64,000 nucleotides of DNA, taken from contig JAKSLB010000011.1 in the NCBI GenBank assembly GCA_024401435.1, positions 1 to 64,000 on the forward strand, read 5' to 3'. A program made the translations under genes and the position numbers. The notes beneath the pieces are model-generated. The model was not told where the DNA came from. It ran no database searches and worked only from the letters and a program-made list of their open reading frames with translations. Shown piece after piece: positions 32,296-63,938 of the stretch; position 1 is the first letter of the stretch, and each line of letters opens with the position of its first letter. Source of the stretch: Paludibacteraceae bacterium (GTDB lineage: Bacteria > Bacteroidota > Bacteroidia > Bacteroidales > Paludibacteraceae).

Positions 32296-34050
32296 TCAAA
32301 TGTCCTTGTATAGTTGAATGCCTACTTTCCTCTTGAACAACCCACATTTGTTGTTTTTGGAGTTTTCATTTAGTTCTGGTCCTATGAATATGTAGTCTTT
32401 AGCCGTTATATGCTCTTTAATCAACTTACACCATTCCTTAAATTGTATATTGCTCATTTCTCTTGGTGTACCATTCCAATGCTCATATTCTTCACCAAAT
32501 GGTGGGCATACTACAACAACTTTGTTTGTTTCAACGACTTGTGCCAATACATCTCTTTGTTTCCATCCATACCAATCACAAAAGTCCTTGTTGATGTCAT
32601 ATGCTTCTATGTTTGGCTCTAAACCTCTATCATTGAACCATTTCCTACAACCTTCAACAATGCCACCGAAACCAGCCATAGGACAATACACACCGCTTGA
32701 AATGTCAACATTAGATTGTTCAACAATCTTTAATAGGTCATTTGACCGCAATGCCGTTACCTTTGGTGCTATCTTTGCTATTGTGAACCTATCAAGAACT
32801 AATGACAATATACTATCACCATCTACAATGATACCATCTTCAACAATACATTCATCAAAAGCCTTTTTGTGCTTTGCTACGAAACTTTCATATTTTCCGT
32901 TGTCTATGCTATACTTCAAGATGCTAAACATATTTCCTACGGCTTTCTTCAGACAACCCCTATTTTCCCAAGCAACCTTTGGGGAAATCTTGTTTCCTAC
33001 ATAACAATCCCATATAGGATGACTACTAGACCACTTGTTTGTTCCTGGAAATGGTTTGGATAAACAATAATCAACAAGTTGATTCAATTTTATCCCAAAC
33101 ATCTCCTTGATTATCTTGGAATCCTTCAAAAAAGTCTTTCCATATTTCTCATTCACATAGGAAATGCATTCATCCACATTAGTTATTATCCGTATGTTGT
33201 GCTCCAACATACACCTATATTTGCTCTTGACTTTCTCAATCGGTTCTCTATTGTAGGGGTCAATCATTTCTCCATCCTTGAAGAAATGTGAACCCTTTAT
33301 TTCTATTAATTCCTTTCCAATGATGAAATCTGGATAATAGTTGAACTTGTTGCCATCATATTCATATTCAAATGACAATGTTTCATTTCTAACTATATCT
33401 ATACCCTTGTCCTTGCTATGAAGATAATATGCCAATTCCCAAGAACTATCAAAACTTAAATCTTCATAGTAGTATCTTTCAGAACAACCCCAAGATGTAT
33501 GATGTCCATTGTTGTTGAATATGGATTTCTTTATCTTCTCTATGCTTTCTTTCGTACCACCACCATTCTTTACACCATACTTCGCTATACAATTCTTCTC
33601 ATATTCCTCTTGAAATGTCCTTGTACCAAACATTTTTGTGTCACCATATTTTGCTATCCTAGTTTCTAATGTCTTGTTGTGAATTTCCTTGTTCTTTTGT
33701 GCATTATCTACACCATATCGTTCAACCAATGTTGACTTTATGCTTTCCTTGGTCTTTTCCAATTGCCAAGGAGATTTTAATCCAGTCCTTTCTTGAAATT
33801 TTTTAATTGCTAGTTCTTGTGGCTTCATTCCGTGGGTTTCAATGCATATCAACTCACTTCTACAAAATTTGCACAAGTCCAAGTATTTGTTTTTCCTAAC
33901 TAATGGATTTGCTCTAAAGTGTCTTCCACATTTTGTACAATCACCTTCATAGTCGGTTCTACACCTCAAGCAATGCTTTGAGTTGTAGTTCTTTGGTGTA
34001 TATTCCTCACCACAACATTCACATATTCTTTTTGACATCATTTTAGCCAT
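32296..34050 (-). CDS. Nuclease fused to a methyltransferase-like domain
   Basis: 584 residues. N-terminal zinc ribbons (CECCGEEY...CLRC and CTKCGRHF...CKFC), then repeats of the ERYGVDNAQKNKEI type seen in phage homing nucleases. Next comes a PD-(D/E)XK-like core around residues 240-252 (YYPDFIIGKELIEIKG), and a C-terminal region with GFGGIVEGCRKW and VVVCPPFGEEYEHW, resembling the SAM-binding and catalytic (PPF) motifs of DNA methyltransferases. It could cut and modify DNA or be a homing enzyme with a captured domain. Start 34050 lies 6 nt after a TATATT box. Confidence 0.6.
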   Translation of the reverse strand: MAKMMSKRICECCGEEYTPKNYNSKHCLRCRTDYEGDCTKCGRHFRANPLVRKNKYLDLCKFCRSELICIETHGMKPQELAIKKFQERTGLKSPWQLEKTKESIKSTLVERYGVDNAQKNKEIHNKTLETRIAKYGDTKMFGTRTFQEEYEKNCIAKYGVKNGGGTKESIEKIKKSIFNNNGHHTSWGCSERYYYEDLSFDSSWELAYYLHSKDKGIDIVRNETLSFEYEYDGNKFNYYPDFIIGKELIEIKGSHFFKDGEMIDPYNREPIEKVKSKYRCMLEHNIRIITNVDECISYVNEKYGKTFLKDSKIIKEMFGIKLNQLVDYCLSKPFPGTNKWSSSHPIWDCYVGNKISPKVAWENRGCLKKAVGNMFSILKYSIDNGKYESFVAKHKKAFDECIVEDGIIVDGDSILSLVLDRFTIAKIAPKVTALRSNDLLKIVEQSNVDISSGVYCPMAGFGGIVEGCRKWFNDRGLEPNIEAYDINKDFCDWYGWKQRDVLAQVVETNKVVVVCPPFGEEYEHWNGTPREMSNIQFKEWCKLIKEHITAKDYIFIGPELNENSKNNKCGLFKRKVGIQLYKDI

Positions 34051-34115: not shown

Positions 34116-37100
34116 TTAGATATGTTCTACTCTATTCTTAATGTCGTGTAGTCTTGCTTGACAACAATCATTTGAATTTAATAAATAACCGCACACTCTA
34201 CGGATAATTGTCATTCTAGCCTTATCGGTGTTACCGCAAGCAGGGCATTTCCAAATGAGTTTTCCTTCGCCATTGTCAATGAGTTCAATTCTACCTTCAA
34301 AACCACACTGGCATCTATCGGTAGAGCCGTTTAGTTCGGCATAGCCAATGTTGTTATAGATGTATTCCATAACACTCAAGACAGCATCAACATTGTTACG
34401 GAGGTCGCCCATTTCAACATAGGATATAGCACCGCCCTTTGAAAGTTTTTGCAACTTGGATTCGTATTCAAGTTTAGTGAATGCATCCATTTCAACCCAA
34501 ACTGGAATATGATATGAATTGGTGATGAATTCCTTATCAGATACGCCAGGTACGATTCCGTGTCTTTTCTTTAGAGCCTTTGCGAACTTGCCTACAAGGT
34601 TTTCTGCTGGAGTGCCATAGATGGAATAGCCGATATGTTCAACTGCCTTCCATTGTTCGCACTTTTCATTCATCTTGTTAAGGATATCTTGAGCAAGTTT
34701 CATAGTATCTTCATCTTCCCAATAGTTCTTACCAGTTAGATAGTATACAGTTTCGTGGAGACCCATATAGCCAACGGAGATTGTAGAGTAACCATTAAAT
34801 AGCAACTTGTCAATGGTTTCGTGTTTGTCAAGTCTAGCAAGAGCACCGTGCTGCCAAAGGATAGGGGCAACATCGCTCTTTACTCCACGGAGTCTTTCGT
34901 GGCGAAGTCTTAATGCTCTATGTGCAAGTTCCATTCTTTGGTCAAGGAGAAGCCAGAACTTTTCCATATCCTTCTTTGAGCAAAGGGCAATATCTGGAAG
35001 GTTGAGTGTGAATACACCTTGGTTAAATCTACCATAATACTTTGGTACACCACCCTTTGTAACAACCTTCCAAGGGTCATCCTTTGAAACCTTTACATCA
35101 CTCAATGTACTACGACAGTTGTGAGAAACTATACCTGACATATTGAACATATCGCAATCAGTTTCAAAGTCATAGGTGGCTTCCTTTTCAACCTCTTCAA
35201 TATTCAATATTTTTGAATATTCCTTTGTATCACATAGGATTACACTATCATTGGTAGTAAGATTTGCACATTCAACTCTACCTCTTTGAGTATGTAGAGG
35301 ATGGTCTTCGGTTATAGTAACTGAACCGAATTCGTGAGTTACCTTATACAACTTTAATGGTGTATATGCGTTGTTTATGATAACGCCACGGATAGGTACA
35401 AATTGATTGCCTGCCAAAATCTGCACATCGGCATCATCAATCTTCTTATAGAATTGATGATAATGTTGTGGTACATCGTGATAACCCTTGTTTGAATTCA
35501 AATGTCCATGATTGCCTCTAATGATGGGGTCTTTCATATTTACGCATAGGTCATTTGCTTCTTTTTTATAGACGATACTTTCAGTTTCATATAGAGAATC
35601 AATGTCGCAAATTGTAAGGACACTAAATTCATAATTATCTTTATCATAGTCTCCAATGAAATAGGAGTCACCAAGAGTACCTTTATACTTTATTGATGTT
35701 CTATGTTCAGAGAATCTACGACCGATGTCCTTGCTAGAACCTATGTAGAACTTGTTTGTGGGCTTGTGTGTAACCTTATATACACCACATTGTCCACGAT
35801 ATGACACATCATATGTGAATTTCCCGTGTTGTTCACCCTTTCTAGAACATTTGTTTCTTACAAGTGATGCAGCCTTGGAAATTTGGATGTTATAATAGAT
35901 TTCATCATCAATCTTTATTGTAACGGTTTCCTTGCCTACGGCAGCACCCATTGTTGGGAAAGCATTGCCGTTATGGAGTTCCTTCATAACCTTTTCAGAC
36001 ATATAGTCTGGCACTTGCTTGTCAGCGGTACACTTTGCTGCAAGTTCGGTTAGATAGTAATACTTTGTACCTGGCTTGTAGTTATCTTCTTGTAGATAAT
36101 AAATCACTTTGGGGAATGCTATGCCTACATAGTGACCTGTTTCATCCTTGACACCCTTCATTCTTCTTTTGATGGTTTCTTCAATGACAATAGCTAGGTC
36201 TTCCTTTTCCTTTTCGTTCTTTGCTTCATTGAGGTACATACAAACAGTAACAAATGGGGCTTGACCATTTACAGTCATTAGGGTGTTGATTTGATAGAGA
36301 AGTGTCTTGCAGCCCTTATAGATATCCTTACGGGTTTCTTCTTCAATGAAAGCATCAAATTCTTCCTTGGTCAACTTTTCTTCAAGTTTCTTATGTTCTT
36401 CTCTGAATGTCTTTCTTGTTTCTTCCACAAATGGTGCTAGGTGAGCCAATGAAATGGTTTGACCGCCATATTGAGAAGAGGCTACCTGTGCAATGATTTG
36501 TGCGGTGATGTTTGATGCGGTACTAAAGGTGGAAGGCTTGTCAATCTTTACCTTATTGATGCAAGTTCCGTTTTGAAGCATATCTTCAATGTTCAATAAA
36601 TCGCAGTTATGTTCATGAGCAGCGAAATAATCCATATCGTGAAAATGACCGATACCATCCTTATGAGCCTTGTAGATATCTTCTGGTATTAGATAACGCT
36701 TTGAATAGTCCTTTGATTGAATGCCAGCCATATAGTCACGCAATGTGCTATTCAATTCTGGATTCTTGTTTGCATTTTCTTGAATTATTTCTTCATTAGT
36801 TCCGTCAAGAAGTGTTCTTAATTCATCATCGGTAGTGTTCTTTCTTCTTGCTAATTCTTTTTCATATCTATAAGTGATGTATTCTCTTGCTACATCAGCT
36901 TTACCAGCCTTGATGATAGCATTCTCAACCATAACTTGGATATCACTTGCATTTACGGAGTGTGTCTCATTCTTTACAACATTTTCAATGTCTTTAGTCA
37001 TTGCCTTGATTTCATCGTTGGTGAATCTATCTTCAATTCTAACCATATTGTTTGCATTGCTAATGGCATTGTAAACATTCATCTTTGAGAAATTTGCTTC

Positions 37101-37130
37101 TGAACCATCTCTCTTAATTATTTTACTCAT
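34116..37130 (-). CDS. nrdD: Anaerobic ribonucleotide reductase, intein-containing
   Basis: 1004 codons; about 728 residues after intein removal. N-terminal ATP-cone (about 1-100, MSKIIKRDGSEANFSK) for allosteric control. The glycyl-radical domain follows. The C-terminus has a zinc site (CQCGFEG...CPACGN) and the radical loop RRVCGYL with Gly981. It reduces ribonucleotides under anoxic conditions and needs NrdG. The intein sits at residues 396-671, between PTMG and the conserved CRS motif. Start 37130 is preferred because of SD AAAGGA and the family N-terminus; the longer frame begins at a poor site. Confidence 0.93.
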   Translation of the reverse strand: MSKIIKRDGSEANFSKMNVYNAISNANNMVRIEDRFTNDEIKAMTKDIENVVKNETHSVNASDIQVMVENAIIKAGKADVAREYITYRYEKELARRKNTTDDELRTLLDGTNEEIIQENANKNPELNSTLRDYMAGIQSKDYSKRYLIPEDIYKAHKDGIGHFHDMDYFAAHEHNCDLLNIEDMLQNGTCINKVKIDKPSTFSTASNITAQIIAQVASSQYGGQTISLAHLAPFVEETRKTFREEHKKLEEKLTKEEFDAFIEEETRKDIYKGCKTLLYQINTLMTVNGQAPFVTVCMYLNEAKNEKEKEDLAIVIEETIKRRMKGVKDETGHYVGIAFPKVIYYLQEDNYKPGTKYYYLTELAAKCTADKQVPDYMSEKVMKELHNGNAFPTMGAAVGKETVTIKIDDEIYYNIQISKAASLVRNKCSRKGEQHGKFTYDVSYRGQCGVYKVTHKPTNKFYIGSSKDIGRRFSEHRTSIKYKGTLGDSYFIGDYDKDNYEFSVLTICDIDSLYETESIVYKKEANDLCVNMKDPIIRGNHGHLNSNKGYHDVPQHYHQFYKKIDDADVQILAGNQFVPIRGVIINNAYTPLKLYKVTHEFGSVTITEDHPLHTQRGRVECANLTTNDSVILCDTKEYSKILNIEEVEKEATYDFETDCDMFNMSGIVSHNCRSTLSDVKVSKDDPWKVVTKGGVPKYYGRFNQGVFTLNLPDIALCSKKDMEKFWLLLDQRMELAHRALRLRHERLRGVKSDVAPILWQHGALARLDKHETIDKLLFNGYSTISVGYMGLHETVYYLTGKNYWEDEDTMKLAQDILNKMNEKCEQWKAVEHIGYSIYGTPAENLVGKFAKALKKRHGIVPGVSDKEFITNSYHIPVWVEMDAFTKLEYESKLQKLSKGGAISYVEMGDLRNNVDAVLSVMEYIYNNIGYAELNGSTDRCQCGFEGRIELIDNGEGKLIWKCPACGNTDKARMTIIRRVCGYLLNSNDCCQARLHDIKNRVEHI
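35118..35945 (-). other. Intein with GIY-YIG domain in NrdD
   Basis: 276 residues. It begins Ala-Ala-Val-Gly-Lys-Glu-Thr-Val (an intein block A with Ala, not Cys or Ser, at position 1) and ends VSHN before Cys+1, the canonical C-terminal splice junction. Inside is a GIY-YIG homing domain (CGVYKVTHKPTNKFYIGSSKD...RRFSEH) and a block-B-like TEDHPLHT. Ala1 inteins splice without the first acyl shift, the Cys+1 attacking the upstream peptide bond directly. The insertion site is the active-site CRS of NrdD. Confidence 0.85.
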
Positions 37131-37192
37131 ATTATTTCCTTTAGAGGTATAGTATATATGACTAAATATATCAAGATTCATTTTTTAAAAAA

Positions 37193-53570: not shown

Positions 53571-53599
53571 TTGACAATCCTTATTTAATTTCTTAAATT
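53571..53599 (+). promoter_or_regulatory. Promoter of cas7, TTATTTAATT variant
   Basis: TTGACA, 17-bp spacer with TTATTTAATT, TAAATT; the same design as the promoter at 17281. About 50 nt of 5' UTR and a GAGGT SD precede cas7. Confidence 0.75.
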
Positions 53600-53656
53600 A
53601 TGTAACAATAATGGACAAGTAGTCCAAAAACACAAAAAACAAAAAGAGGTATGTAA

Positions 53657-54856
53657 ATGAAGAAGATTATTCTCACCGAAGAAGTCAAGGCTATCAAGAT
53701 TGATGTTGAAACAGTTGGTGCCCGTGGCATTATCAACTTTGATGGTTCTGAACAAAAGAATCTTTACAATGGTTCTTACAACTACAATAGTAGGAACATT
53801 TCTAACGCAAGTTGGAATTTCGCTGGTTACACCGACAACATTAAACTTGGTAAGGGAATCTTTGGTGTCGGTAAGCAGTTTATGGGCTATAAGGAGAATG
53901 ATGATGGTAAAATCGTTGTAGATGATAACGGCAATCCTATCAAAGAATACAAGGATGTAATTCTCCGTAGAAACATTATTAGCAACGAATCATTCAAGCA
54001 GATGGTGTTTTCAAAAAAGTGTCCGTATAACACTACCGACATTTGGTATAAGGAACCTGATGTGGTTTCCAACTATCTTGCAAACCCCATTATGATTTCA
54101 AAGGGATATCTTGGTCTTGCAGAAGAAACCAAAGCACAGAGAAATTCTATGCTCAATTTCACAAATCTCAAGATTGACGATGTAACTTTGGCAAATGTTG
54201 CATTTGGTTCTACGAATACCATTTCAGATAATGATGGCGATAAGGCAACATCTATCCACAATAAAGAAACATGCGATGAATGTGTATGGACTGGTTCTAT
54301 CACATTAATGTGTTGTGGTATTGGTAATATTGTTCTTCTCAACAATGCGGCAGGTAAGAGTGCAAAGCCACTTAAATCTACGGAAGGTGCGTTCCTTAAT
54401 GCTATGCAGAATTCATTTAATGATAATACACTAAAGATTGGGGATTACATTTCCACAAACTCTCTCAATCCTACAATCCTTCACGGCATCCTTCTCAATG
54501 AAAAGAGTATGGCTACTATTGCAAACACTCTTATTAAAGAAATCCGTGATTTTGATACCCGCACCAATGCAGGTGGTTCAAGTGGAAATTTCAGAATTAC
54601 TGCAATGTCTTGGAAGGATAAGTATCAAGAATATCACGATATTGATTTAGAGTCCTATGATAGAGATGAGCCGTTTGGAAGCATTGCAATTGGAAACGAA
54701 TTCCGTGAAGCAACAAAGGAAGAAATTGAAGCCTTCAATAACGCAAGACTTGCAAATGAGAATAAAGCAAAAGAAAGAAATGCTCAAAAGGAAGAAGATA
54801 AGAAGAAAAAGAAGGAAAAAAAGGCAAAAAAGGAATCCGCTAAAAAGGCAGATTAA
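53657..54856 (+). CDS. cas7: Cas7-like backbone protein, I-F2 (I-Fv) type
   Basis: 399 residues. From memory of Shewanella Cas7fv, the order of features agrees: an N-terminal RGIINFDG (against GVVNWNG), AGYTDNIKLGKG (RGYTNLTGK), ILRRNIISNESFKQMVF (ISQNCIRHHLFREQ), then NSLNPTILHGILLNEKSM near the end and a Lys-rich tail of about 30 residues absent in the relative. Cas7 coats the crRNA in the effector complex. No Cas8 gene is present nearby, as in I-F2. Alignment by eye only. The first eight residues (MKKIILTE) recall the phage tag but lack its second half. Confidence 0.65.
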   Translation: MKKIILTEEVKAIKIDVETVGARGIINFDGSEQKNLYNGSYNYNSRNISNASWNFAGYTDNIKLGKGIFGVGKQFMGYKENDDGKIVVDDNGNPIKEYKDVILRRNIISNESFKQMVFSKKCPYNTTDIWYKEPDVVSNYLANPIMISKGYLGLAEETKAQRNSMLNFTNLKIDDVTLANVAFGSTNTISDNDGDKATSIHNKETCDECVWTGSITLMCCGIGNIVLLNNAAGKSAKPLKSTEGAFLNAMQNSFNDNTLKIGDYISTNSLNPTILHGILLNEKSMATIANTLIKEIRDFDTRTNAGGSSGNFRITAMSWKDKYQEYHDIDLESYDRDEPFGSIAIGNEFREATKEEIEAFNNARLANENKAKERNAQKEEDKKKKKEKKAKKESAKKAD

Positions 54857-54869
54857 TAAATGCTAATAA

Positions 54870-54902
54870 AAATGGGGTATAAGTCAAATACCCCATTTTT
54901 TC
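54870..54902 (+). terminator. Terminator of cas7
   Basis: AAAATGGGGTA/TACCCCATTTT stem and T-run, separating cas7 from the cas5-cas6 transcript. Confidence 0.75.
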
Positions 54903-54912
54903 ATAAAAACGC

Positions 54913-54941
54913 TTGACAATCCTTATATAATTTTGTATATT
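54913..54941 (+). promoter_or_regulatory. Promoter of cas5-cas6
   Basis: TTGACA, 17-bp spacer with TTATATAATTTTG, TATATT; identical design to 2371, 25944 and 61343. The ATG with SD AAGGAG follows after about 20 nt. Confidence 0.8.
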
Positions 54942-54961
54942 ATACACAACAAGGAGATTAT

Positions 54962-55954
54962 ATGCCTATTTTAAGAATGCGATTTGAAAATGTCCATTAC
55001 TATTATGGTTCAAAGAACACCATTTCTGAACAATTTAACACTGGGAAACTTGGCATTACCGATTATGAATTGCGTAATGTATTTGCTAATATGTTAAATG
55101 TATGTCCAATTTCATTTCTACCCCCCAAAAACCCTAATGATAGTTCAAAAAAGAAGGTGGGTGATTGTTATGTTTCTTGGTTTGCTACAAACGAACTCAT
55201 TAAGAAGCACAAGGAACTTTATGAATTGGCTAAAAGTGCTTTAATTAAATATAACGACAATGCCGATGATGATAGATTTCTTAAAATGAAAGAAACTGTT
55301 AGCACTTTACATTGTGGCGAACAAGACAAAGGTGGTGAAGGTAAAGGCAGTGAAATTATTCATTTTCACGGACAAACTTTTACACCTAAAAACAATAGAC
55401 CGTTAACTCTAGGTGCTTTGTATGATATTTTCTTCATTGTATGGGATGAATTTGTGAATATCGTAACTAAAATTTGTAATGATGATATTCACAATTTAAG
55501 ACCTTGGGAAGATATTATGACCAAATTGTATGAAGAATATCATAAGCATAATGATTTGGTTGTGAACTTCATTGATAAAATCAATGGGAAAGATTATCCG
55601 TGTTGTATGTATAAGTTGGCAACTTGTGTAAAGACTGGGAATGTTGCCGATAGCACAATTAGAAATGATTCAAAGACAATAATCAGTGACTTTTCAATGA
55701 GTCCAAGATTCCCACAAAAATCAACTATCCGTATGGATGGCGAAATCTACATTGAAGTTTCAGAAGAAATGAAGAATGAATTCCTTAATGGTTGTGGGTA
55801 TGCAACATTAGGCAATGGTTTCATTGAAATTGAAAAAACTAATAAATTTGAAAATCATTACGAAGTCTATGGTTTTGAAGATGACTTCCTTGAAACTTTG
55901 AAGAAGCCTATTCATAAAGAAATTGACTTTGATGCCTTTACAAACCTTACATAA
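54962..55954 (+). CDS. cas5: Cas5-like protein, I-F2 (I-Fv) type
   Basis: 330 residues, the length of Cas5fv. Agreement by eye with the I-F2 protein is best at the C-terminus: DGEIYIEVSEEMKNEFL, GYATLGNGFIEIE, in a beta-helix-Gly-beta pattern like Cas5fv (GQLEISIDVDR...YLGKKGLAYV), and at ITDYELRNVFANMLNV against the ENTLDTVMGVLNRL helix. It should hold the 5' end of the crRNA and in I-F2 takes over large-subunit functions. Less certain than Cas1 or Cas3. Confidence 0.55.
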   Translation: MPILRMRFENVHYYYGSKNTISEQFNTGKLGITDYELRNVFANMLNVCPISFLPPKNPNDSSKKKVGDCYVSWFATNELIKKHKELYELAKSALIKYNDNADDDRFLKMKETVSTLHCGEQDKGGEGKGSEIIHFHGQTFTPKNNRPLTLGALYDIFFIVWDEFVNIVTKICNDDIHNLRPWEDIMTKLYEEYHKHNDLVVNFIDKINGKDYPCCMYKLATCVKTGNVADSTIRNDSKTIISDFSMSPRFPQKSTIRMDGEIYIEVSEEMKNEFLNGCGYATLGNGFIEIEKTNKFENHYEVYGFEDDFLETLKKPIHKEIDFDAFTNLT

Positions 55955-55992
55955 TTTTCTACATTTTAACTAACATATAAAAGAGGTAAAAT

Positions 55993-56544
55993 ATGTATCA
56001 TCACACTATACAATTCAAAGAAGCCAAGAACGAATATAGCTACCATTGCAATATGTATAAGTTGTTTGGATATGATAACTATACACAAAATGCAAAAATC
56101 CCAAGGTTTCAAATTTTAGGTAATGGTTGGGTTGATTTTTATACCAATACCGATGTATTTTCAAACACTAGTGTAATTGAATGCAAGTATTCAGAACAGA
56201 TAGATGCGTGTGTTGATAATTTTTCTTTAGTGTATGTTCCACGCCATAAGAACCAATATGGAAAGAAAGTCTTATATGTCAACCCCACAAACGATGACCT
56301 CAAGAAAATTAAAAACAAACTTGAAAAGTTCCTTTGTGAACAAGGACTTGATGTTGAAGAAATTGACATTAAGTATGAAACCAGAAGGACTATTAAAAAT
56401 TGTAAAGGCAAAAATTCTAAATTGAAAAGCATTTCTTACGCAATTTCAAAAATTGTGTTGAATAAGTCTTGTGACATTTCTTACCTACTTGAAAATGGGT
56501 ATGGTGCTTTCAAATACAATGGTCTTGGGTATGTAAAATTGTAA
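55993..56544 (+). CDS. cas6: Cas6-like crRNA-processing nuclease
   Basis: 183 residues, the size of Cas6f. It lies between cas5 and the array, and ends with a Gly-rich loop GYGAFKYNGLGYV typical of Cas6 C-termini. A putative active-site His is not assignable with confidence. It would cut each repeat after the hairpin. Its stop codon lies within the first bases of the leader block shared with array 2. Confidence 0.55.
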   Translation: MYHHTIQFKEAKNEYSYHCNMYKLFGYDNYTQNAKIPRFQILGNGWVDFYTNTDVFSNTSVIECKYSEQIDACVDNFSLVYVPRHKNQYGKKVLYVNPTNDDLKKIKNKLEKFLCEQGLDVEEIDIKYETRRTIKNCKGKNSKLKSISYAISKIVLNKSCDISYLLENGYGAFKYNGLGYVKL

Positions 56545-56618
56545 GTAGAATGTAAGTTTCTTTTTAATACACTATATATTGTTGTTATTGAATATTTTCT
56601 ACACAATATATAGTGTAT
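56541..56618 (+). promoter_or_regulatory. Leader of CRISPR array 1 with inverted repeat
   Basis: A 16-bp perfect inverted repeat, ATACACTATATATTGT at 56567-56582 and its complement at 56603-56618; the right arm covers the first 4 nt of the first repeat. The whole segment is nearly the same as that before array 2 (from about 60678). Likely acts in spacer acquisition (leader recognition). Confidence 0.75.
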
Positions 56619-57127
56619 CACTCCTATGCGGGTGAAATTTATTTGCTACAATAATAGAAACATTGTAATAGAAGAGTATCACTCCTATGCGGGTGAAATT
56701 TATGTTTAAACATTCTACTTTATATAAGATTCGTCAGTATCACTCCTATGCGGGTGAAATTTATAGGTGAACACTTGTACCAAGTACAATCATCATATGT
56801 ATCACTCCTATGCGGGTGAAATTTATGGGCAATGAATGACAGCAGATGATTTATTCCTAGTATCACTCCTATGCGGGTGAAATTTATATATGGTGGTCGT
56901 GGTCTTGGCTTTGATAAATCGTATCACTCCTATGCGGGTGAAATTTATATAAATTATGGTTGAAATCCTCGCAAACATCGTGTATCACTCCTATGTGGGT
57001 GAAATTTATAATACTAGATGGCAACTCTATGTATGTACGCAAGTATCACTCCTATGCGGGTGAAATTTATGCAACAAAGAATTGGGAAAGATGATAACAA
57101 ATGGTATCACTCCTATGCGGGTGAAAT
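56615..57127 (+). CRISPR. CRISPR array 1, nine repeats, eight spacers
   Basis: 28-nt repeat beginning GTATCACTCC and ending GGGTGAAATTTAT. Spacers are 33 nt except the third (34). Repeats start at 56615, 56676, 56737, 56799, 56860, 56921, 56982, 57043 and 57104; the seventh has one change (CTATGT), and the last loses its 3' end (GAAATAAA) next to cas1. The hairpin TCAC-CC/GGGTGA lies in the repeat. The leader is at the cas6 side. Spacers show no match to this window by eye. Confidence 0.97.
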
Positions 57128-57145
57128 AAAAACAATAGGATTTTT

Positions 57146-57940
57146 ATGAAGTATTTTCAATTATCAGAATTGTTGCATACGGATGAAAGGTCGTGTGCAA
57201 TTTTCATAGAAAAATCAAAGATAACTAAATCAAACAATCAATTAATAGCAGACAATCATATACGAAAAGAAGTCATAAATTACGGATTATTTTGTAGTAT
57301 TATAATGGGTCGTGGTACTAGCATAACACACGATGCTATGGAGTTATTGGCATCAACAAATACTTCTTTGGTTGTAGCCTCTAATGAATGTAAAAGTATA
57401 CAAATGTTATCATTATCACCTACGGCAAATACGACTAAAATATACAAACAAATAGAAATATTACAAAATGAAAACAAGTTGAAAGATGTGCAAAATTCTT
57501 TATTGAATGAAAGATTTAATGCTAACACTTCATATGATGAATATCAAAAATTAGGTCAAGAAGGACATTTTATGAAATGTCTATATCAAGATAAATCAAA
57601 AGAGTATGGTGTTAAATGGATTCATAGGGATTACAATGCTACTTGTGGTATAAACGCTAGATTGAATTTATTGAACTCTTGTTTATATGGTATAACAACC
57701 GCTGTAATTCATACATTAGGAATGAGTCCTTATATTGGATTTATACATAAATCTTCTTCATTGCCTTTTGTATATGATTTATCAGATTGTGTTAAAAAAG
57801 AAACAAGTATTGATGTTGCATTTGAATGTGAATCAAAACAAACTACTAATGAAATGATGATTAATATGTTCATTGATAGATGTGATGGTTTGAAAATAAC
57901 AAAAAAACTTTCAACGATAGCTTTGAGTATATTAAAATGA
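57146..57940 (+). CDS. cas1: Cas1 integrase, I-E-like
   Basis: 264 residues. Catalytic Glu139 (GQEGHFM), His201 (GFIH) and Asp211/Asp214 (VYDLSD) are in place, with the same spacing as E. coli Cas1 (Glu141, His208, Asp218/221). The block NSCLYGITTAVIHTLGMSPYIGFIH is of the I-E type; also GRGTSITHDAMELLA. It integrates spacers as a complex with Cas2, which starts in its stop codon. It is about 40 residues shorter than E. coli Cas1. Confidence 0.93.
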   Translation: MKYFQLSELLHTDERSCAIFIEKSKITKSNNQLIADNHIRKEVINYGLFCSIIMGRGTSITHDAMELLASTNTSLVVASNECKSIQMLSLSPTANTTKIYKQIEILQNENKLKDVQNSLLNERFNANTSYDEYQKLGQEGHFMKCLYQDKSKEYGVKWIHRDYNATCGINARLNLLNSCLYGITTAVIHTLGMSPYIGFIHKSSSLPFVYDLSDCVKKETSIDVAFECESKQTTNEMMINMFIDRCDGLKITKKLSTIALSILK

Positions 57941-58131
57941 TAATTATAGATGCTTCAAAATTAACTAAAAAAGAAAGAGGGTTACTATCTGCATTTTGTG
58001 TAAAAATAACTCCTTCCATATATGCAACCCCTTGTAATATGAAGATTGTAAAAACTTTTGTGAATAGATGTAGCGATTCTTGTATAATTTACAATCAAAT
58101 AGGAAATAAAATATTGACAATAAACCATTAA
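57937..58131 (+). CDS. cas2: Cas2, I-E-like and short
   Basis: 64 residues. LTKKERGLLSAFCVKITPSIYATPCNMKI follows the I-E Cas2 pattern ([22 protein letters not shown]). It lacks the C-terminal about 30 residues of E. coli Cas2. Overlaps cas1 by 4 nt (ATGA). It would form the core dimer of the spacer-integration complex. Confidence 0.8.
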   Translation: MIIIDASKLTKKERGLLSAFCVKITPSIYATPCNMKIVKTFVNRCSDSCIIYNQIGNKILTINH

Positions 58132-58142
58132 ATTGCTATATT
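58114..58142 (+). promoter_or_regulatory. Promoter of cas3
   Basis: TTGACA (58114-58119), 17-bp spacer, TATATT (58137-58142). It lies over the end of cas2. An SD GGAG precedes cas3. Confidence 0.75.
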
Positions 58143-58219
58143 TGTTACATACACATTTGTGTTGTTGATTAATCCGTTTTCAACATGGTTGAAAATAAAC
58201 TCTTTACGGAGTATTAAAT

Positions 58220-60685
58220 ATGCTTAAAGCAAAATTGAATTCAAACATCTCTTTGAAAGACCATAGCACCGATGTAGCAAATAAAAGCTATGACCTTGCA
58301 AAATCCTTAAATTGTAACGAAGAGATTTGTAACGCAAGTAGATTGGCAGGGATGTTTCATGACATTGGAAAGTCTATTTCAAGAATTCAATCTTATTATA
58401 ACGGAAGTCCAAGTAGCAACATTCCACATCCGTACCATAACGAAATCGGCTGGCTTTGGCTTCAAAAGCATAAGGATGAAGTTGTAGAATTAATCAAAAA
58501 GTTTAATGCCGTTCCAATTGATTTGAATGAGTCAAACCGAAAAATTGCGGATGAATACATTTTTCAAATTATTTCTTCTTGCGTATATTATTCTCATGCA
58601 AAGAGATTAAATGTTGTAGAAAATAAAAAGACCATTAAAAACGACATCAATGTTGCCGAAAAACATTATATGTTGCAGAACAACGATGGTGAAATTTCAA
58701 GTTTTATGAAGGATTTGTTTAATGTTGATTTTAACAAAATTCAATCATTGAACAATAAAGAACCAAAACTTATCGTTGAAAGAGATGTGTATGGTTTAGA
58801 CTTTGGTTATGTTACATTACCAAAAGCTGGAAGTAATACACCTATATTTAGATATGAAAAGATTGCATATGCAAATGCAATTCTCTTGTTGATTAGAGCA
58901 TTGCTCATTGAATCAGACCATATTGTTTCTTCAAACAATAGTGAAGATATTATTTATGACATCATTGAAAAGAATGAAATGCCTAGTGAATGGCTAAAAG
59001 GTGATGATGAAACAATCAAAATAAATAAGCGTAGATTTAATGAGTGCTTTGATGCCGTAAAAACGACACAAGAAAATAACACATATTCTGTTGTTAATAT
59101 GACCGCAGGTGGTGGTAAGACATCTGTGGGATATCATCTTGGTTTGCGAAGCAATAAGAAAACCATTTTCCTTTGTTCTAGAAAGGAAGTTGCAAAGAGC
59201 ATTTACGATGAATTGAAAGACCTTGAAAGACTCTTTGGAACTAATGAAGGCATTGAATTGGTGTACGAAACAAAAAGGCAAAATTCTACAAAAGAAGGTG
59301 ATTGTAGATTTTGCGTAGGCACTATTGATACATTTATTGGAACTTGTGTTAATGGACGCAATATGGGGAATAACATTGAAGATTCTTCCGTAAGGATGTT
59401 CAACCTATTCAACTCCAATTTAGTTTTTGATGAATATCATGAACTTATGGATGACACAAGCCTTTTCACTTTGTTTATTCATTTGATGTCCGCTAGAGCA
59501 AACATCATAAAGAACGATACTTTCACTCTACTTCTTTCAGCTACACCAGTTTACATTAATTCCCTTGTATTTGGTGTGGGTAATGAGTTTGCTAGTTATT
59601 ATCCTTCAAAGTATAATCATTGTAGTCCACAACATAATAAAACATACCATTCAAGTTGTGTAAAGTGTGTTTCTCCAATTTATAACAATTGTTTTGGCAT
59701 TTTCAACGCAATTGAAACTTCTCAATTGTATTTTGTTGATGGTAAAAATATATGCGTAAACAATAATTTGTTGTATGTAGATAAGTTCAATGCCATAAAT
59801 AGACTTATTCAACATAATGGAAAATATGGTACAAATCCCATTTCCGTAACGGCTAGTCCTTTGATTCAAGCAAGTATGAATATAAGTTGCGAAAGACTTG
59901 TAGAAAGTGTTTCAAATCCTTGGAATACCATTCAAAGAATTGGTAGATGTAATAGATATGGCAAGTTAAACGATGCTTATATTGAGCACTACATTAGTGA
60001 AGAGGGTTCACCAGAATCATTATTGCATCCATTTGTTAAAATCAATGATACAATGAAAAACATCATTCGTAATTGGCGAAATTATCTTAACACTAGCGTT
60101 GGAACTACTGGTAAGAATCTAGTTCTATCAAATTACTATGAAATGTTTATGCTTTTCTATCGTACAAATTCTACATTGATTGAAAGTCATATTGAATATT
60201 GTTATAAAGAAGGGTTAAATAATCTTGAAATCTTTTTCCCCAAAAAGGTTAATTATTTAGAAGATGGCAAAAAGATAAATTGCACATCTTTGCGTGGTTG
60301 TGCCGAAAGTGTAATGACTATATATGGTACTGATAATAATGGAAATTTGAGATGGATTGGTTCTAATTATAAAAATGATAAAGAAATTCCATTTACTGTA
60401 AAAGATTGGGAATTGAAGAAATTGTTAGGTTATTGGCGAGGACATGAGAATGTATTAAAGAATATTTTGCTTAAATCTAGACCCAATGAATTTAGTGGCA
60501 TCAAGAAATTTATTAAGTATAAAAGTGGAATTAAAAAACTCTCTGACAATAAAATAAAATTCCTAATTGAAAATTGGGAATGGATGAGTAAGAATTATGA
60601 TTTACCTATAATCGTCCCTCCAAAGGCTTGTAAATATGATTTCAAAACTGGTAGAGAAAGGGTGGTCATAGAAAATTGTAAGTAA
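58220..60685 (+). CDS. cas3: Cas3 helicase-nuclease, HD then DExH
   Basis: 821 residues. N-terminal HD nuclease: His47-Asp48 in MFHDIGK and later IPHPYHNEIG. Helicase: Walker A AGGGKTS with Lys300, DEYH at 404-407, SATP near 440, and QRIGRCNRYG near 574. It is a free-standing Cas3, not fused to Cas2 as in classical I-F systems. It degrades the target strand after recruitment by the effector. Its last codons lie in the duplicated leader block. Confidence 0.93.
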   Translation: MLKAKLNSNISLKDHSTDVANKSYDLAKSLNCNEEICNASRLAGMFHDIGKSISRIQSYYNGSPSSNIPHPYHNEIGWLWLQKHKDEVVELIKKFNAVPIDLNESNRKIADEYIFQIISSCVYYSHAKRLNVVENKKTIKNDINVAEKHYMLQNNDGEISSFMKDLFNVDFNKIQSLNNKEPKLIVERDVYGLDFGYVTLPKAGSNTPIFRYEKIAYANAILLLIRALLIESDHIVSSNNSEDIIYDIIEKNEMPSEWLKGDDETIKINKRRFNECFDAVKTTQENNTYSVVNMTAGGGKTSVGYHLGLRSNKKTIFLCSRKEVAKSIYDELKDLERLFGTNEGIELVYETKRQNSTKEGDCRFCVGTIDTFIGTCVNGRNMGNNIEDSSVRMFNLFNSNLVFDEYHELMDDTSLFTLFIHLMSARANIIKNDTFTLLLSATPVYINSLVFGVGNEFASYYPSKYNHCSPQHNKTYHSSCVKCVSPIYNNCFGIFNAIETSQLYFVDGKNICVNNNLLYVDKFNAINRLIQHNGKYGTNPISVTASPLIQASMNISCERLVESVSNPWNTIQRIGRCNRYGKLNDAYIEHYISEEGSPESLLHPFVKINDTMKNIIRNWRNYLNTSVGTTGKNLVLSNYYEMFMLFYRTNSTLIESHIEYCYKEGLNNLEIFFPKKVNYLEDGKKINCTSLRGCAESVMTIYGTDNNGNLRWIGSNYKNDKEIPFTVKDWELKKLLGYWRGHENVLKNILLKSRPNEFSGIKKFIKYKSGIKKLSDNKIKFLIENWEWMSKNYDLPIIVPPKACKYDFKTGRERVVIENCK

Positions 60686-60751
60686 AATGTAAGTTTCTTT
60701 TTAACATACTATATATTGTTGTTATTAATTGGTGCTTACACAACATATAGT
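60678..60751 (+). promoter_or_regulatory. Leader of CRISPR array 2
   Basis: Nearly the same as the leader of array 1, starting at GTAAGTAAAATGTAAGTTTC, with the inverted repeat kept apart from one mismatch in its 12-bp core. It begins in the end of cas3. Confidence 0.75.
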
Positions 60752-60962
60752 GCATCACTCATATGTGGGTGAAATTTATACAAAGTTTACACCACCTATA
60801 AGCACGGAGCTAGTATCACTCCTATGTGGGTGAAATTTATTTACAAGGAACTCAAAGCCCTTTTTCTTGGTAGGTATCACTCCTATGCGGGTGAAATTTA
60901 TTAATAACGGCTTGCAATTTTGTATGCTTCTTCCGTATCACTCCTATGCGGGTGAAATTTAT
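60752..60962 (+). CRISPR. CRISPR array 2, four repeats, three spacers
   Basis: Repeats start at 60752, 60813, 60874 and 60935; spacers are 33 nt. The leader-proximal repeat has three changes (GCATCACTCATATGT), the second has one, the last two match the consensus. Divergence at the leader side suggests little recent acquisition here. Confidence 0.95.
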
Positions 60963-62769: not shown

Positions 62770-62976
62770 ATGAACGAAACCACAAGACAACTCTACGCAG
62801 CAGCGAACGCTGGACACGGAAATGAACTACTCAATAGTGCATTAGGTATTTATGCTTTAAGCGGTTTGGGTTGTCTACTTATCATAATATGCATTTTGAT
62901 TGCACTATTTGCATTGAAATACTTGATATTTGATGTGATTTTCAATATGTTTGATGATGAAGATGAAGATGACTAA
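62770..62976 (+). CDS. Single-pass membrane protein, 68 aa
   Basis: Hydrophobic helix at about residues 28-56 (GLGCLLIIICILIALFAL) and an acidic tail (FDDEDEDD). A TATATAATGT box, like that upstream of the gp15-like gene, lies right before the ATG. Role unknown. Confidence 0.5.
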   Translation: MNETTRQLYAAANAGHGNELLNSALGIYALSGLGCLLIIICILIALFALKYLIFDVIFNMFDDEDEDD

Positions 62977-63938
62977 TTGGAATTTAATTTTTCCAATAGC
63001 TTCAATTTCCTTCTTCTTTCAATTTCAACTTCTAGAACCATAGATGTATGGTCAACTACCCACACCCTAAAGGGTGTGAGCTTGTAATGCACCAGAGCAG
63101 CCATGCACCCTGCCTTCCAAGTCCGCAACGCTCCGTCTAGGGGCATCTTGAACGAGGAAGGATGTTTGCTCTTCTGAGCGATGTTGATTGCAGCGTTCCA
63201 GTCGGCATCAAGTACAGTACCGTTCTTGCAATAGAACCTTCGGTTCTTGCGGGTACCTTCCTTCTTGCCAGTGGTACAATCGGTCTGACTTGTCAAAAAC
63301 GGAGAAACTGTTTCTACTCTTTTTCCATTGAGTAGTGCCTTGTATGACAAGATTTGCTTGAACTTGTAGAATGGAATCTGATACATTCTACGGTTGTGGG
63401 ATTTCCGTTTGAACCCCTTGTTAGTCTTTGCTGTCTTCTGCTTGATGCCAGATAAGTCTTCCATCACGACAATGGAAGCTGGTGTGCTTTGAATTACCGC
63501 ATTGGCAATCTTCTGGCACATGTCGGTAGACTGGTTCTGCTCCTTGATGGACAGCTTGCGAGAGTGCCTATTAGCAGACTTGGTGCCCTTCTTCTGCAAG
63601 CATCTCTTTAGGTATCTAAGTTTTCTTCTACGCTTGTTGTACTCCTTGTCGTGAAACATCACACCTTCGGAGGAGATTGCGAACCTGCGTTCGCCCATAT
63701 CCAACCCGATGCAGTTATCATCATACAACGGCACATCTGGCACATTGAATGTTATTGCAAGGAAGAACCTTCCGTTCCGCATGAAAATCAGTGGGTCATC
63801 TGTGGTATATTGCACAAACAACGAATCCAACCTATCATAACCGACAATATCCGCTACGGCTCTTCTGCAAGACTTACCTGAGCATAATGCAATGGTCTTG
63901 CGATTGAACTTGGAATACAGTCGCTTGTCCAATCTCAT
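62973..63938 (-). CDS. tnpB: TnpB-like RNA-guided nuclease, N-terminally short
   Basis: 321 residues. RuvC-I Asp80 (GLDMGERRF), RuvC-II Glu160 (VVMEDLSG) and RuvC-III Asp246 (LDADWNAA). The family's first about 110 residues are missing. The zinc ribbon keeps only two of four cysteines (DCTTGK, FYCKNG). The higher G+C content points to recent arrival. The hairpin typical of an IS200/IS605 right end lies inside the 3' part of the gene (63061-63078), and the frame continues into the phage sequence. Its upstream part may extend out of the window. Confidence 0.8.
   Translation of the reverse strand: MRLDKRLYSKFNRKTIALCSGKSCRRAVADIVGYDRLDSLFVQYTTDDPLIFMRNGRFFLAITFNVPDVPLYDDNCIGLDMGERRFAISSEGVMFHDKEYNKRRRKLRYLKRCLQKKGTKSANRHSRKLSIKEQNQSTDMCQKIANAVIQSTPASIVVMEDLSGIKQKTAKTNKGFKRKSHNRRMYQIPFYKFKQILSYKALLNGKRVETVSPFLTSQTDCTTGKKEGTRKNRRFYCKNGTVLDADWNAAINIAQKSKHPSSFKMPLDGALRTWKAGCMAALVHYKLTPFRVWVVDHTSMVLEVEIERRRKLKLLEKLNSN
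63051..63078 (-). mobile_element. Right-end hairpin of an IS200/IS605-type element
   Basis: CACACCCTAAAGGGTGTG hairpin (63061-63078) followed on the minus strand by GGTAGTTGAC, a common right end of these elements and the 3' end of the guide RNA scaffold. The expected boundary to phage DNA is near 63051. The left end is not in the window. Confidence 0.55.

Follow-up and report, generated by a model that had tools for sequence, protein, structure and literature searches.

I-F2 (I-Fv, the Shewanella putrefaciens type) is a type I CRISPR-Cas system without a Cas8 or Cas11 gene, with Cas1f, a Cas2-Cas3 fusion, Cas5fv and Cas6f; according to sections of PMC6546366, Cas5fv carries an additional helical domain that takes the place of the large subunit and recognizes the protospacer adjacent motif (PAM). 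Among phages, the I-F system of the Vibrio phage ICP1 is a complete CRISPR-Cas including adaptation genes (sections of PMC11656645). The type I variants described from huge phages in 2020 are reduced systems, almost all without Cas1 and Cas2, and sections of that report (PMC7162821) also call phage systems with their own adaptation genes rare. Sections of the 2025 classification (PMC12669027) report module shuffling as well as a variant that lies between I-F1 and I-F2, and no phage lineage of the kind described below; other variants appear in sections of PMC10910872, PMC12607003 and PMC7162821. Here we analyze a CRISPR-Cas locus in a stretch of 64,000 nucleotides (nt), hereafter the window, which is bases 1-64000 of contig C13 (90,168 bases) in an assembly of 3.83 Mb and 204 contigs. 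In the open literature we found no description of its gene combination.

The locus runs cas7, cas5, cas6, array 1, cas1, cas2, cas3, array 2, in a single orientation and with all frames open. It resembles I-F2 in lacking Cas8 and Cas11 genes, in its related Cas3 and Cas7 and in the order cas7-cas5-cas6; unlike I-F2, its Cas1 belongs to the Cas1e group, Cas2 and Cas3 are encoded separately, Cas5 is unassigned, Cas6 is Cas6e-like and the repeat period is 61 nt. With I-E of Escherichia coli it shares the Cas1 group, a free-standing Cas3 and the 61-nt period, with a weak resemblance in Cas2 and in Cas6 (the latter including a histidine), whereas Cas8e, Cas11, Cas7e and Cas5e are absent from the locus. 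Like the ICP1 system it combines interference and adaptation genes on a phage, but the ICP1 system is I-F and its Cas1 is only distantly similar (24.9% identity). The huge-phage variants differ again, being I-C with a Cas5d-like Cas5 and without Cas6 in sections of PMC7162821. Sequence comparisons suggest, with a probability that we put at roughly 0.7, that this is a phage-borne type I system whose lineage is sister to I-F2 and whose processing and adaptation side is I-E-like. The best reading is a little-known phage lineage of type I effectors without Cas8, met here mostly on phage DNA, that would swap processing and adaptation modules.

Related loci and the effector genes

Searches with the single window proteins were uninformative: Cas7, Cas5, Cas3 and Cas1 had no relative among viral contigs, Cas7 had none in phages, plasmids or 100 related genomes, and Cas3 had none in phages or, at 1e-12, in the other 357 genomes of a family sample. 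The Cas3 search of plasmids returned four records; the three examined are I-F2 loci and the fourth has an annotated cas7fv. Aligned with the Cas3 proteins of those three I-F2 loci, the window Cas3 retrieved 22 loci from viral contigs. Three aligned phage Cas3 proteins, scanned against genome contigs, yielded 79 loci from the best 80 of 86 relatives, so that counts from the genome scan are lower bounds. All were sorted by annotation with profiles built in this analysis.

The viral loci comprised two window-like ones (L011 and L029, on contigs of 277 and 42 kb), 13 with cas3-cas7-cas5-cas6 and another Cas6, three cut versions of this last kind, two with cas3 and no effector genes (L028; L032, cut), one I-F2 locus (L026) and one odd locus (L031). 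The genome loci included a further window-like one (L036), a lone Cas3 at a contig end (L033), at least 65 with a Cas7fv-like gene (weak in L087), at least six with cas1f and cas3 only and at least six with a weak Cas3 alone. Some entries are redundant: L012 scores exactly as L013 does, L017-L024 are near-copies of one another, and L031 is apparently the same record as L087, present in two collections (same length and coordinates). Second viral scans with a Cas3 pair and with a Cas1 pair, which returned L029's contig, gave no new contig, and an exact-pattern scan of viral contigs for the repeat gave no match.

The four window-like loci vary in order. L029 has the window's gene set arranged as cas3-cas7-cas5-cas6-cas1-cas2-array, with 25 repeats; L036 reads cas3-cas7-cas5-cas6-array, and L011 reads cas7-cas5-cas6-array-cas3, with a cas7 truncated where the contig begins. 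Within the stretches examined, only the window and L029 carry cas1 and cas2. The repeats measure 28 nt and recur about every 61 nt; they form hairpins in the window, L011 and L029; those of L036 vary. In the L036 array (L036:14319-14770) the repeats differ in or near the loop while the stem pairs seem, by eye, to be kept, as in CCCGTGTGTGCGGG and CCCGTTTATACGGG.

A second group of phage loci (L012-L025, L027 and L030, on contigs of up to 389 kb) shares related Cas3, Cas7 and Cas5 with the window, and no Cas8 was seen in them. These differ in order (cas3-cas7-cas5-cas6-array where complete), in longer repeats (about 36 nt, period 66 nt), in having no cas1 or cas2 match in the stretches examined, and in a Cas6 that is Cas6b-like (L017 by PADLOC Cas6b, 1.5e-38; the remaining ones by a profile made for this analysis). 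Some of the loci described here may be included in a 2022 survey of systems encoded by viruses. Separately, a record named Bacteriophage sp. (L006, MT835722.1) holds an apparently complete I-E locus with E. coli-like gene sizes, Cas1e and an array of about 24 repeats; it is possibly bacterial.

Cas3 is related to the I-F2 protein. The best PADLOC match of the window protein is Cas3fv (2.1e-42), and the HD, Walker A, DExH and QRxGR motif residues are invariant across a 12-row alignment. There is no Cas2-Cas3 fusion, as cas2 and cas3 are separate open reading frames (ORFs) and the window Cas3 is gapped over the N-terminal part of the three plasmid proteins. We reconstructed a tree of 35 rows, including five outgroup rows and 15 chosen I-F2 loci, with one row per set of near-copies. 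A phage clade (support 96/96) united the four window-like loci, eight loci of the Cas6b kind, L033 and L028; its sister was the 15 I-F2 rows plus L031 (100/98), and the 15 alone formed a group at 100/100, placing the window Cas3 outside the I-F2 rows sampled. The window paired with L011 and L029 with L036, each at 100/100. The root is less certain than the groups because the outgroup rows are distant. Within this clade, L028 and L033 have no adjoining effector genes in the stretch examined, and L033 stops within cas3.

Cas7 could be tied to Cas7fv once relatives were included. Alone, the window protein had no PADLOC match and an E value of 0.95 to Cas7fv. The four-sequence set of the window and its three relatives aligned with 59 Cas7fv sequences at an hhalign probability of 98.2 (P 5e-14), columns 1-270 of 366 against 1-286 of 330, with none of 100 column shuffles as good. 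The relatives individually matched PADLOC Cas7fv (L029 3.1e-14, L036 3e-9, L011 5.2e-4). No relation to Cas7e was seen (hhalign 1.1, against two Cas7e sequences only). Small alignments of Cas7fv, Cas5fv and Cas6f compared with single window proteins returned nothing, and larger sets succeeded for Cas7 only; searches of Protein Data Bank (PDB) sequences with the single Cas7, Cas5 and Cas6, and with profiles of the Cas5 and Cas6 sets, returned chance matches only.

The product encoded at 54962 is a putative Cas5, named by its position between cas7 and cas6. It belongs to the same family as the cas5 products of the Cas6b-type phage loci (hhalign 97.7), and comparison of the Cas5 set with Cas5e gave no signal (0.1). 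At 330 amino acids (aa) it is longer than the 224-aa Cas5e of E. coli, and so would have room for an extra helical domain.

Processing and adaptation modules

Cas6 weakly resembles Cas6e. Our Cas6 set aligned with ten Cas6e sequences (14 candidates minus L128, L135, L138 and L139, dropped for open frames of at least 320 aa) at an hhalign value of 46.3 (P 2e-4), and the alignment is collinear along most of its length. The 28-nt repeats that this enzyme would process are I-E-like as well. The score, 33.6, exceeded the best of 150 column shuffles (17.9), none being as good; an earlier comparison with two Cas6e sequences only had given 22.1. The invariant His18 of the set aligns with His20 of E. 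coli CasE, which we take to be catalytic, and a glycine-rich C-terminal loop reads GYGAFKYNGLG. A Cas6f identity was rejected in favor of this resemblance, with an hhalign value of 0.6 and 8 of 150 column shuffles as good. By itself the window Cas6 matched neither Pfam nor PADLOC; the type IV-A3 Cas6 model was matched by L029 (2.8e-5) and L036 (5.5e-5) and not by L011 or the window protein.

The window Cas1 matched PADLOC Cas1e at 4.8e-46 against 1.3e-12 for Cas1f, and scored below the NCBIfam Cas1e cut-off (153 versus 215.6 bits). Its E139, H201 and D214 align with E141, H208 and D221 of E. coli Cas1, presumably the catalytic residues. A tree of 28 rows held the window, L029, five Cas1e, 11 of 53 gathered Cas1f and ten sequences from the host's relatives (11 of 16 loci entered, one without a frame). 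The window and L029 grouped at 99/96 and joined the five Cas1e at 93/89, apart from the Cas1f (99/99) and from the host-relative sequences (100/100). Cas2 matched weakly to PADLOC Cas2 (0.0031), PADLOC Cas2e (0.017) and Pfam Cas2CT1978 (0.016). By these sequence criteria, the adaptation module is I-E-like in both the window and L029.

Several observations weigh against this overall interpretation. The Cas6e link exceeds shuffles yet is weak (probability 46); the Cas6 set also scored 23.9 against a Cas6b-like set, with none of 150 shuffles as good, so part of the Cas6e signal may be common to Cas6 in general, and its profile matched no Cas6e chain among PDB sequences. The Cas5 set showed no sequence tie to Cas5fv (0.4; 17 of 150 shuffles as good). 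In the Cas3 tree the four window-like loci group weakly (82/61), and the join of Cas1 with Cas1e falls below the starred level, with long end branches flagged by the program. Cas2 is short (64 aa). Finally, no spacer target was found in the phages, plasmids or genomes searched.

One alternative is that the locus is a divergent I-F2 that acquired a Cas1e-Cas2e pair, its Cas5fv and Cas6f having diverged beyond detection. The I-F2 affinity of Cas3 and Cas7 and the size and order of cas7-cas5-cas6 would fit, but Cas6 is like Cas6e rather than Cas6f, Cas3 has no Cas2 fusion and lies with strong support outside the 15 I-F2 rows used, and the repeat period, 61 nt, departs from the 60 nt that predominates in L026, an I-F2 locus; we regard this as distinctly unlikely. 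We favor a lineage beside I-F2. A broader scenario, which we offer tentatively as possible, is that of an old, mainly phage-borne Cas8-less lineage exchanging modules (Cas6e-like with Cas1e; Cas6b-like without adaptation), from which bacterial I-F2 would be the branch that left, gaining Cas1f, Cas2-3 and Cas6f. In that case the window would stand for a subtype not yet named.

The original prediction, which had proposed a modular recombinant with Cas7fv, Cas5fv and Cas6f effectors, a free-standing Cas3 and an I-E-like Cas1, was correct in its central claim and mistaken about Cas6. Cas7, Cas3 and Cas1 came out as proposed; profile comparison went against Cas6f and gave no support for Cas5fv. The recombinant idea survives in part: an I-F2-related effector does sit with I-E-like parts, but not as a lone recombinant from I-F2, the lineage being sister in the Cas3 tree and having three further such loci (L011, L029 and L036).

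Architecture, expression and proposed function

The features of the locus are collected in Table 1. Its full one-orientation layout with two arrays, the phage location, the phage-style promoters, the 61-nt period and the lack of Cas8 had all been part of the original prediction, and each agrees with what we found. As to Cas8 and Cas11, no gene for either was seen in the locus, where the largest other ORF between 53571 and 60962 has 97 aa and is antisense; the rest of the phage was not searched for Cas8.

Table 1. Genes, arrays and regulatory features of the window's CRISPR-Cas locus
Feature	Position	Strand	Basis
Phage-type promoter before cas7	53571..53599	+	TTGACA-17-TAAATT, consensus match
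cas7, Cas7fv-like backbone subunit, 399 aa, lysine-rich tail	53657..54856	+	Profile comparison with relatives
Phage-type promoter before cas5	54913..54941	+	Consensus match
Putative cas5, 330 aa	54962..55954	+	Position; family common to other phage loci
cas6, Cas6e-like, 183 aa	55993..56544	+	hhalign to Cas6e; His18; C-terminal loop
Leader of array 1	56545..56614	+	Resembles leader 2, partly leader 3; limits approximate
CRISPR array 1, 8 spacers between 9 repeats of 28 nt	56615..57131	+	Repeats and spacers; last repeat has an altered end
cas1, Cas1e group	57146..57940	+	Profiles, tree, catalytic-position residues
cas2, 64 aa, weakly Cas2e-like	57937..58131	+	Weak profile matches; same place in L029
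Phage-type promoter before cas3, overlapping the cas2 end	58114..58142	+	Consensus match
cas3, HD nuclease and helicase, no fused Cas2 domain	58220..60685	+	Cas3fv profile, motifs, tree
Leader of array 2	60686..60751	+	Resembles leader 1; limits approximate
CRISPR array 2, 4 repeats, 3 spacers	60752..60962	+	Repeats and spacers; first repeat has three changes

Spacers are 33 nt long except for one of 34 nt in array 1 (seven of 33 nt there, and all three in array 2), giving a period of 61, once 62. The repeat folds into a hairpin of -6.3 kcal/mol (z -2.5; 3 of 200 shuffles equally good), followed by an 8-nt tail, AAATTTAT; the I-E handle is likewise 8 nt long. The stretches upstream of the two arrays are similar (85% over 117 nt).

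The sequence TTGACA-17-TATATT, allowing at most one mismatch, occurs at 18 sites in the window against 1.8 expected, a number reached in none of 100 shuffles, and the sites include those upstream of cas7 (53571), cas5 (54913) and cas3 (58114). A looser promoter scan of the locus region was not above chance (64 versus 55.3, sd 7.3). As the promoter type of the locus recurs elsewhere in the phage, the locus is probably wired into the phage's own transcription. Between the two parts of the motif often sits TTATATAATTTT. This promoter type would be unusual if the host belonged to Bacteroidota, as genes next to L114 in a genome of the same order may suggest, and the assembly may not represent the true host.

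Under the favored reading of a phage lineage beside I-F2, Cas1-Cas2 would insert new 33-nt spacers on the leader side of each array, and Cas6 would cut the repeat 3' of its hairpin, leaving AAATTTAT as the handle. Cas5 would cap this handle and, by analogy with the Cas5fv of I-F2, probably stands in for the missing Cas8 in reading the PAM and recruiting Cas3; copies of Cas7 would line the spacer, and Cas3 would unwind and shred target DNA. During infection the phage would use the system, from its own promoters, against competing phages, satellites and other mobile elements, a role that we infer from other phage systems (sections of PMC11656645 and PMC13037316). The loci place small type I effectors without a Cas8 gene in phages, beyond bacterial I-F2 as sampled here, and pair them with either of two modules for RNA processing, turning their origin into a testable question. 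The locus also adds one phage system with its own adaptation genes and points to compact effectors unlike the solved I-F2 complex (5o6u and others).

Alternatively, the system may be partly dead, having lost either adaptation or cleavage, and persist as a fixed binder guided by CRISPR RNA that, for example, silences host or rival genes. The short Cas2, the short arrays (8 and 3 spacers), the altered end of the last repeat of array 1, the three changes in the first repeat of array 2, and the lack of cas1 and cas2 in the stretches examined of L011 (which starts at the contig's first base) and L036 would all suit such decay, but the catalytic residues of Cas1 and the HD and helicase motifs of Cas3 are intact, 9 of 13 repeats over both arrays are identical and the frames are open. 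We consider it rather unlikely, and prefer an active phage system.

Spacers, host and phage context

Array 1 spacers gave one 27-nt match in phages (E 0.6) and none in plasmids; against the assembly's own genome and 100 relatives, with at most six candidates per genome scored, they gave three weak matches elsewhere (E 0.002-0.006). Array 2 spacers had no match in phages. Both arrays with their intervening genes, searched against 358 family genomes, showed no match in any spacer, two candidates per genome being scored and weak ones possibly missed; the same search found short matches (78-91% identity) in cas1, cas2 and cas3 in 12 other genomes, which we judged to be chance. The best of the weak spacer matches, spacer 5 of array 1 with 85% identity over 34 nt to a serine-hydrolase-like gene in G083 (L114), was likewise treated as chance; with up to three mismatches this spacer matched only the array itself in 350 family genomes, a set outside which G083, of another family, falls.

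A host origin of the system is unsupported. Cas6e had no match in 101 genomes (the assembly's own and its relatives), Cas7fv had nothing above cut-off in 395 genomes of the phylum (a match of 5.8e-4 over 36 positions, with an internal stop, was dismissed), and the Cas1 of host relatives is distant. As a counterpoint, Cas6e is present in 12 of 148 genomes of the phylum, so the phylum holds I-E. Of the CRISPR spacers that the assembly itself carries (21 from C139; none on the C46 stretch), none clearly matched the phage, the best match being 17 nt exact.

Outside the window, at contig 65097-65124 and adjoining the portal gene, a third, less similar leader-like stretch precedes a single repeat identical to the array repeat, either an empty array or a unit like an RNA anti-CRISPR. 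Sections of PMC11656645 report that single phage repeats can serve as RNA anti-CRISPRs, and this would accord with a decoy whose repeats or Cas proteins mimic parts of a host CRISPR. However, besides the lack of a Cas6e match in those 101 genomes, the array that adjoins the cas1 of the assembly itself, on C139, has a repeat unrelated to the phage repeat, and the single repeat matches the phage's own arrays, making a decoy highly improbable beside the functional phage system favored above.

Judged from its structural genes, C13 is tailed-phage DNA. It encodes a portal protein (phrog_213, 6.9e-66), a major head protein (phrog_138, 3.3e-65), a tail sheath stabilizer (phrog_227, 1.6e-36), a scaffold protein and a head-maturation-protease-like protein, together with anaerobic ribonucleotide reductase, type II topoisomerase and RtcB ligase. 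The reductase gene (34116-37181, - strand) contains an internal homing-endonuclease-like stretch (phrog_314), possibly an intein, and a second homing-endonuclease-like gene lies at 32296-34050. A transposase/TnpB-like gene at 62973-63938 (- strand) matches the Cas12f1-like TNB and OrfB models, and two genes at contig 80087-81436 and 83563-84777 (- strand) have a relative in common with it. Between 2604 and 16679, many similar proteins share the pattern NYxxYIGKTISVxGDV, spotted by eye.

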